20,050 nt of DNA from positions 1 through 20,050 of the IMG/VR virus record IMGVR_UViG_3300025310_000228. The stretch is one strand, 5' to 3'. Numbering within the stretch: position 1 is the first letter of the stretch; each line of letters starts with the position of its first letter. Shown here one piece after another: positions 7,300 through 8,508 of the stretch. The stretch comes from a virus. The notes under the pieces are model-generated. The model was not told the DNA's origin, searched no databases, and worked only from the letters and a program-made list of their open reading frames with translations. Position numbers and translations under genes: made by a program.

Positions 7300-7722
7300 A
7301 TGAGTGGCTCCGATCTGGATGTCCTCGTGCCGCAGCCGCAAGTTGTGGATCTGGCCGGCCAACGCCTCGCGATCAGCCCGCTGGTGCTCGGCCAGCTGCC
7401 GGCGATGCTCAAGGCCGTGCAGCCTTTCGCGCAACGACTGGCGGGCGAACCGGACTGGCTCGCCTTGCTCTCGGACCACGGCGATGCGTTGCTCACCGCG
7501 TTGGCGATCGCCAGTCGCCAACCGCGCGAGTGGGTGGACGCGCTGGCTCTCGACGATGCCATCACCCTGGCGGCGACCGTGTTCGAGGTGAATGCGGATT
7601 TTTTCGTGCAACGGCTGGCGCCGGCCGTGCAGCACGCGGCCGCGCGGGTGAACGGCCGGCTGAGTGGGGCGACGCCTTCCACCGTCTCATCCGCTCCGGG
7701 CACCGCCTCCCCGACGTCCTGA
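7300..7722 (+). CDS. Tail assembly chaperone, gpG-like (zero frame)
   Basis: A 140-residue protein in the place of lambda gpG, between the tail tube and tape measure genes. It is mostly helical: VDLAGQRLAISPLVLGQLPA, then helices covering LKAVQPFAQRL and DALLTALAIASRQ, and an end that becomes Pro/Ser/Thr-rich. The ATG at 7300 is preferred because the G-rich ribosome binding site at 7287-7293 has proper spacing to it; GTG 7285 and ATG 7294 are alternatives. Chaperones of this type coat the tape measure protein before the tube polymerises. Codons 101-102 lie in the slippery run T TTT TTC, where a fraction of ribosomes should move to the overlapping frame. Confidence 0.8.
   Translation: MSGSDLDVLVPQPQVVDLAGQRLAISPLVLGQLPAMLKAVQPFAQRLAGEPDWLALLSDHGDALLTALAIASRQPREWVDALALDDAITLAATVFEVNADFFVQRLAPAVQHAAARVNGRLSGATPSTVSSAPGTASPTS
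7599..7605 (+). other. Candidate -1 ribosomal frameshift site, T TTT TTC
   Basis: The heptamer T TTT TTC fits the X XXY YYZ rule in the frame of the gpG-like gene: the P-site TTT (7600-7602) and A-site TTC (7603-7605) can both re-pair after slipping back one base. The -1 frame is then open to the stop at 7875-7877. A GC-rich potential stem at about 7622-7641 (GGCCGTG against CACGCGGCC) lies downstream, although at a longer distance than usual. The gpG/gpT pair of lambda uses the same logic with a different heptamer. The predicted fusion has 192 residues. Confidence 0.7.
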
Positions 7723-7877
7723 ACTACACCCTCGCCCAAATGGAAGCCTTTCTCGCGGCCGAGGCGCGCGACGAGCGCGAGCGCCTCAACGCCATGCTCG
7801 TGGTCACCGCCGTCGGCAGCCAGGGCGACCGGCGTGCCATCGAACGGCTGCAGCGGGAGCTCGGCCGTGCGGATTAG
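7605..7877 (+). CDS. Tail assembly chaperone extension, gpT-like (-1 frame)
   Basis: This is the part of the predicted gpG-gpT fusion that lies in the -1 frame: 90 residues added after codon 102 of the chaperone. The first 20 residues form a low-complexity Gly/Ala/Arg linker. The rest, from WGDAFHRLIRSGHRLPDVLN onward with YTLAQMEAFLAAEARDER, is a helical domain of the type found in T-domains that bind the tape measure protein. No good independent start precedes the domain, so frameshifting is the simplest way to make it. Strong third-position GC in this frame begins only near 7660, downstream of the slip site. The stop TAG overlaps the GTG start of the next gene. Confidence 0.72.
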   Translation, partial: RATAGAGRAARGRAGERPAEWGDAFHRLIRSGHRLPDVLNYTLAQMEAFLAAEARDERERLNAMLVVTAVGSQGDRRAIERLQRELGRAD

Positions 7878-8508
7878 CCTCTCGGCCACCGGCCTGTTCG
7901 ACCCGAGGCAGCTCAAAGCCTGGTCGGCCGAGCGCCGCAAGGCCATCCACAAGGCGGTCGCGCGCGGCATGCAGTCGGGCGGGCGCGAGGTGCGCGATGC
8001 GGCCCGTGCACAGATGCGCACGGCCTTCCAGGTGAAGCGCGCGAGCTTCGTATCGAGCATGCGGGCGAAAGTCCTCGACAAGAAGCCCGAGCGACTGCCG
8101 GCCCTACTGGTGGGCAGCAAGATCCCCTGGCTGGGCGCGCACGAGCGGGGCGGCACGGTGGCCGGCAATCTGCTGATCCCGCTGCTGCCCGGGCGCATCG
8201 GCCCGAAGCGCTTCCGCCAGGTGGTGGATGCGCTGATGCGCTCCGGCAACGCCTTCTTCGTCGAGAAGGACGGCAAGGTCATCTTGATGGCCGAGAACAT
8301 CCGCGAGAACGCCGCAGCGCTCGCCCGTTTCAAGCGCGCCGAGCGTGCCCGCACCGGCGCCAAGCAGATCAAGCGCGGCCAGGAGATCCCCATCGCCGTC
8401 CTGGTCAAGTCCGTGACGCTCAAACGACGCCTCGACCTCGCCGGCTCCGTGCGGCGGACGCTGCCGCGCCTCGCGGGCGCGATCCAGAACGAACTGACGA
8501 AAGCCTGA
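7867..8508 (+). CDS. Conserved tail-region protein of unknown function (possibly DUF6441)
   Basis: A 213-residue protein between the tail chaperones and the tape measure gene. The GTG at 7867 is chosen because GGGAG (7855-7859) lies seven bases upstream and the gene then overlaps the chaperone stop. It begins MRISLSATGLFDPRQLKAWS, followed by a basic helical stretch (ERRKAIHKAVARGMQSGGRE) and a central part with GSKIPWLGAHERGGTV. It has many Lys and Arg residues and no membrane segment. The N-terminal pattern recalls the DUF6441 phage family, an assignment from memory. A minor tail or tail completion role is inferred from position. Its stop overlaps the tape measure start (TGATG). Confidence 0.65.
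   Translation: MRISLSATGLFDPRQLKAWSAERRKAIHKAVARGMQSGGREVRDAARAQMRTAFQVKRASFVSSMRAKVLDKKPERLPALLVGSKIPWLGAHERGGTVAGNLLIPLLPGRIGPKRFRQVVDALMRSGNAFFVEKDGKVILMAENIRENAAALARFKRAERARTGAKQIKRGQEIPIAVLVKSVTLKRRLDLAGSVRRTLPRLAGAIQNELTKA

Follow-up and report, generated by a model that had tools for sequence, protein, structure and literature searches.

The slip site of the phage lambda G/G-T gene is G GGA AAG, and that of the phage P2 E/E' gene is T TTT TTG. The lambda gpG/gpG-T gene lies between the tail-tube and tape measure genes and combines a chaperone with a T domain through a shift in the -1 direction; G binds the tape measure protein, T binds the tail tube, and both are absent from virions (PMC5009743). 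P2 is a myophage with other chaperone sequences, and its frameshift efficiency is 2- to 3-fold higher (PMC5009743). The dnaX signal couples a slip run, A AAA AAG, to an upstream Shine-Dalgarno (SD)-like stimulator (PMC3711429) and to a downstream hairpin.

Two groups of phages carry closer relatives of the gene studied here. In the D3112/DMS3/MP42/PaMx73 group of Pseudomonas phages (Casadabanvirus), G is homologous and the same T TTT TTC is found: it was predicted in core ORF35, the homologous gene of the PaMx73/D3112-group phages (PMC4378225), and the record of phage MP42 marks TTTTTTC as a slippery sequence at the homologous place. The Stenotrophomonas phages DLP_5 and Summit (Delepquintavirus) encode a homologous tape measure chaperone (G 28%, T 41%) with GAT TTT TTT at the slip position, so that the heptamer reads T TTT TTT and not T TTT TTC. 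The joined G-T product is annotated in the records of Summit, MP38 (gpG and gpGT) and MP42.

We analysed a virus record of 20,050 bases, hereafter the window, whose gene at 7300-7877 almost certainly encodes, as judged by sequence comparison, a two-product G/G-T chaperone made through a -1 slip at T TTT TTC. This gene is a new member of the phrog_1442 group that would work like lambda G-T, with a type of signal that has already been described. An earlier note on this DNA had set its heptamer apart from that of lambda, a contrast that is right yet not new in light of the ORF35 prediction and the MP42 annotation. The T-run slip site resembles that of P2, whose T TTT TTG also occurs in one member of the window's family.

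A predicted chaperone gene between the tail tube and tape measure genes

The window shows a siphophage-type order of head and tail genes (Table 1). The candidate gene sits between the tail tube and tape measure genes, as in lambda, with a DUF6441 gene intervening. Its upstream open reading frame is a tail chaperone homologue by profile, and the phrog_1442 match is shared by all 20 aligned family members. GAGGGGG precedes the start codon at 7300. The AlphaFold2 model of gpG has a mean pLDDT of 84, and its predicted-structure neighbours are named tail assembly chaperone or pre-tape measure frameshift protein G.

Table 1. Features of the chaperone locus and its neighbors in the window
Feature	Position	Strand	Details
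Major tail (tube) protein with Ig-like domain, 250 aa	6536..7288	+	phrog_807, E 3.6e-86
gpG-type tail assembly chaperone, zero frame, 140 aa	7300..7722	+	phrog_1442 'tail assembly chaperone', 1.4e-39; PF20336 DUF6631, 5.4e-13
Shine-Dalgarno-like GAGGTGA	7585..7591	+	7 nt before the heptamer; could pair with the 16S rRNA end
Slippery heptamer T TTT TTC	7599..7605	+	Zero-frame GAT TTT TTC GTG, gpG codons 100-102
-1 frame extension	7605..7877	+	Linker 7605-7661, T-like helical domain 7662-7874, stop 7875-7877; fusion 192 aa
Possible hairpin ACGGCTG[GCGC]CGGCCGT	7611..7628	+	Weak; 5 nt past the heptamer; -10.2 kcal/mol, z -1.8 by itself
DUF6441 protein	7867..8508	+	PF20039, 6.4e-96; phrog_6367, 1.2e-78
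Tail tape measure protein, 834 aa	8508..11012	+	phrog_13338, E 0; phrog_2335 'tail length tape measure protein', 1.9e-69

The second domain lies in the -1 frame and matches phrog_13355 (8e-23) and also phrog_14432. Together, the phrog_1442/DUF6631 profile match, a T TTT TTY heptamer and a T domain in the -1 frame place the gene in this chaperone family. The helical nature of the T-like domain suggested by the earlier note was borne out by prediction, with a mean pLDDT of 86. Profile matches of T to alphaRep proteins, short and repeat-like, were discounted.

Similarity to described proteins is graded. Both the G and T profiles match MP42, MP38 and DMS3, and the VW-6B member of the G family is 41% identical to MP38 gpG. 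The Casadabanvirus group differs from the window in its GGT before the heptamer (GAT in the window), in its tape measure gene directly following T, and in its T domain, which is only weakly similar. In DLP_5 and Summit, the stretch from T to the tape measure gene gave no DUF6441 match. A tblastn search of the phage collection with the window G gave no match, and divergent members of the G family were used as queries instead. Lambda-type Pfam chaperone models matched neither G nor T at E up to 1, PDB structure searches with the T and G models returned no match, and a literature search on DUF6631 found no paper.

Homologues follow the order tail tube - G - T - (DUF6441) - tape measure, as in the window. 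In most relatives the DUF6441 gene (PF20039) separates T from the tape measure gene; in the window it starts just before the T frame closes and is preceded by GGGAG.

The slip site is conserved in sequence and in phase

The heptamer was found where the earlier note had placed it, in the proper zero-frame phase, and the predicted products of 140 and 192 residues were both reproduced (stops at 7720-7722 and 7875-7877). A single T6Y per window is unremarkable, with 0.43 expected and one present in 26 of 100 shuffles; since a lone T6Y is not significant by itself, the weight falls on conservation among homologues, the check that the earlier note had proposed. We gathered G and T relatives from virus contigs, bacterial genomes and phage records. 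The check was passed throughout: T TTT TTY occupies the slip position in all 94 distinct close G-T homologues (T TTT TTC in 69, T TTT TTT in 25), and a heptamer in the zero-frame phase X XXY YYZ is likewise conserved in 39/39 sequences of a wider, diverse phrog_1442 set.

Phe-Phe is conserved in the protein itself, so independent evidence comes only from the third bases and from the preceding T. In the diverse set, the codon before Phe-Phe is GAT, AGT, GGT, CGT, CAT or ACT, encoding D, S, G, R, H or T. Its third base is T in 39/39, and the T before Phe-Phe is thus kept while the amino acid varies. Sequence pairs that agree in the residue at D100 or F101 always agree in its codon too (1.00 versus 0.51 expected from codon use), and outside the slip site TTC is more frequent than TTT (75 versus 34). 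The slip site is real, and its reading as a -1 frameshift signal is well supported by these comparisons. For the Val codon directly 3' of the heptamer (7606-7608), same-residue pairs almost always agree on GTG, 0.99 versus 0.43 expected.

The constant phase also bears on slippage at the level of transcription, in which RNA polymerase would add a base on the T run and yield a fused mRNA. A T run is present, reaching T7 in some relatives, and T runs longer than 8 are listed as slippage sites in a study of frame transitions (PMC3711429). The run is, however, only T6 in the window and never exceeds T7 in relatives, and its phase is always the X XXY YYZ that ribosomal tandem slippage requires, which makes the transcriptional route very unlikely.

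No examined homologue kept the two-frame arrangement while lacking the heptamer. The nearest such case, L226, has AAT TTT TTG (456), in which Phe-Leu replaces Phe-Phe and T TTT TTG is still slippery. Wherever both domains were found, T lies in the -1 frame of G, with one exception: in L123, a prophage of Thermomonas sp. S9 on a canu long-read contig, T7C stands for T6C at 2431-2437 and places G and T in one frame, either as a natural fusion or as a homopolymer error. A distant, weak G-like match (L224, 1498-1857, E 4e-4) has neither the heptamer nor a T frame before a tape-measure-like ORF.

The predicted change of frame lies at or just after the heptamer

In the window, the open stretch of the -1 frame begins at about 7260 and ends at 7877, in agreement with the earlier claim that it opens well before the heptamer. 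The homologues locate the change of frame more closely. In the 66 nt leading up to the heptamer the -1 frame contains stops in 16/39 sequences, compared with 0/39 in the next 60 nt (p = 4e-6, a value that overstates the weight of the difference, as p-values do here, the homologues being related and not independent observations); the +1 frame has stops in those next 60 nt in 21/39. The -1 frame of one homologue (L059) is closed immediately ahead of the heptamer, and in another (L114) the zero frame ends 46 nt past the heptamer, with the T domain starting at 75. These two cases confine the change of frame, family-wide, to the stretch between the heptamer and 46 nt past it.

The earlier note had cautioned that strong third-position GC (GC3) appears in the -1 frame only near 7660 and that the slip could be close to that point. 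The late rise in GC3 holds, and the intervening linker is predicted with low confidence: the structure model gives low confidence to the first 16-20 residues after the slip, up to about 7653-7662, followed by a helical domain modelled with confidence. The family comparison nevertheless speaks strongly against a slip near 7660. The zero frame of L114 stops before the start of T, the linker is free of -1 stops in 39/39 homologues, an openness that a later slip would not need, and the T run is the conserved site, no tandem slip site being conserved near 7660. We consider such a late slip extremely unlikely. Zero-frame G coding runs past the heptamer, and the late GC3 rise likely reflects a poorly constrained linker that overlaps the still-coding end of gpG.

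Alternatively, T could be a separate protein that needs no frameshift, translated either from a start of its own or by ribosomes that re-initiate past the G stop. An ATG at 7740 sits 18 nt past the G stop, and phrog_13355 is a T-only family of 58 positions, which suggests that gene callers place such starts. This ATG, however, is inside the conserved T domain, and neither it nor a GTG at 7530 has an obvious Shine-Dalgarno sequence before it. Among 24 family representatives, 22 have no T-frame ATG, GTG or TTG between the heptamer and the T domain, and a separate T would give no reason for the frozen codons of the heptamer. Independent translation of T is accordingly exceedingly improbable. The statement of the earlier note that T has no start codon of its own is nearly right for the window, where the T frame holds only that GTG, which precedes the heptamer, and the ATG within T.

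An upstream SD-like element accompanies the heptamer

As in dnaX, the slip run in the window is preceded by an SD-like element. Averaged over 39 homologues, pairing with the anti-SD is strongest for the 9-mer that ends 6-7 nt before the heptamer (z -6.8), with a mean of -9.46 kcal/mol versus -7.22 +/- 0.49 kcal/mol for synonymous randomisation (0/2000). Several divergent homologues have no SD-like element. GAGGTGA is a probable upstream stimulator of frameshifting, a role we grade only as probable because the sequences are related and several divergent members lack the element.

Unlike dnaX, the window site shows no conserved downstream hairpin. The possible hairpin of the window is absent from the minimum-energy fold of a longer stretch, and across homologues the downstream RNA (45 nt) has a mean z of -0.69 against -0.68 for the upstream control, with no conserved stimulator found. 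Downstream structure was rejected as general evidence, since it folds no better than this control.

Proposed mechanism and significance

The observations comprise the sequence and how far it is conserved, the openness of the -1 frame, the constrained slip codons and the order of the genes; from these we infer the occurrence and rate of slippage, the role of the SD-like element and the functions of the proteins. Most ribosomes would read the gene in the zero frame and produce gpG. A minority would pause at GAT TTT TTC, probably aided by pairing with the upstream GAGGUGA, and both tRNA-Phe would step back by one base, from TTT to TTT in the P site and from TTC to TTT in the A site. Translation would then continue in the -1 frame through the linker and the helical T domain to give gpG-T. 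By analogy with lambda, the G part may coat the tape measure protein, while the T part of the rarer fusion may recruit tail-tube subunits.

The comparisons give firm support to a frameshift missed by gene callers and tie DUF6631 to tail chaperones. The T domain has no Pfam model, is of 'unknown function' in PHROGs and is omitted from many records, that of DMS3 for example. The slip codons, frozen family-wide, and the SD-like element form a clean natural set for testing the requirements of T TTT TTY.

A mosaic junction lies 5 nt before the heptamer

A sharp mosaic junction falls at 7594 in the window, 5 nt short of the heptamer. L007 and L008 share 98.7% identity with the window over the 300 nt ahead of the heptamer and 64-66% beyond it. 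L021, by contrast, is 66% identical upstream and matches the window base for base from 7594 on, over at least 2.6 kb. We used only the window's own comparisons, as an all-pairs mosaic scan was noisy (poorly aligned pairs, near-zero identities). The junction could be a site of recombination or an assembly chimera.

A broader reading extends to the whole phrog_1442 family. It would combine a conserved upstream SD-like element and T TTT TTY, with no conserved downstream structure, and would make the block around the signal a crossover point at which the G domain is swapped while the heptamer, the T domain and the tape measure module are kept. We regard this conjunction as possible but rather unlikely.

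The junction, in a source that is a virus fragment, also raises the question of whether the two frames are an artefact of sequencing error or a broken gene. The idea is refuted, and left with a practically negligible chance, by 94 distinct sequences that share the two-frame layout, isolate phages and bacterial genomes among them. Because the heptamer and the arrangement of the frames are the same in relatives on either side of the junction, the conclusion on the frameshift is independent of how the junction arose. One related contig, L088, has its first base precisely at 7594 and matches the remaining 12,457 bases of the window with 100% identity.
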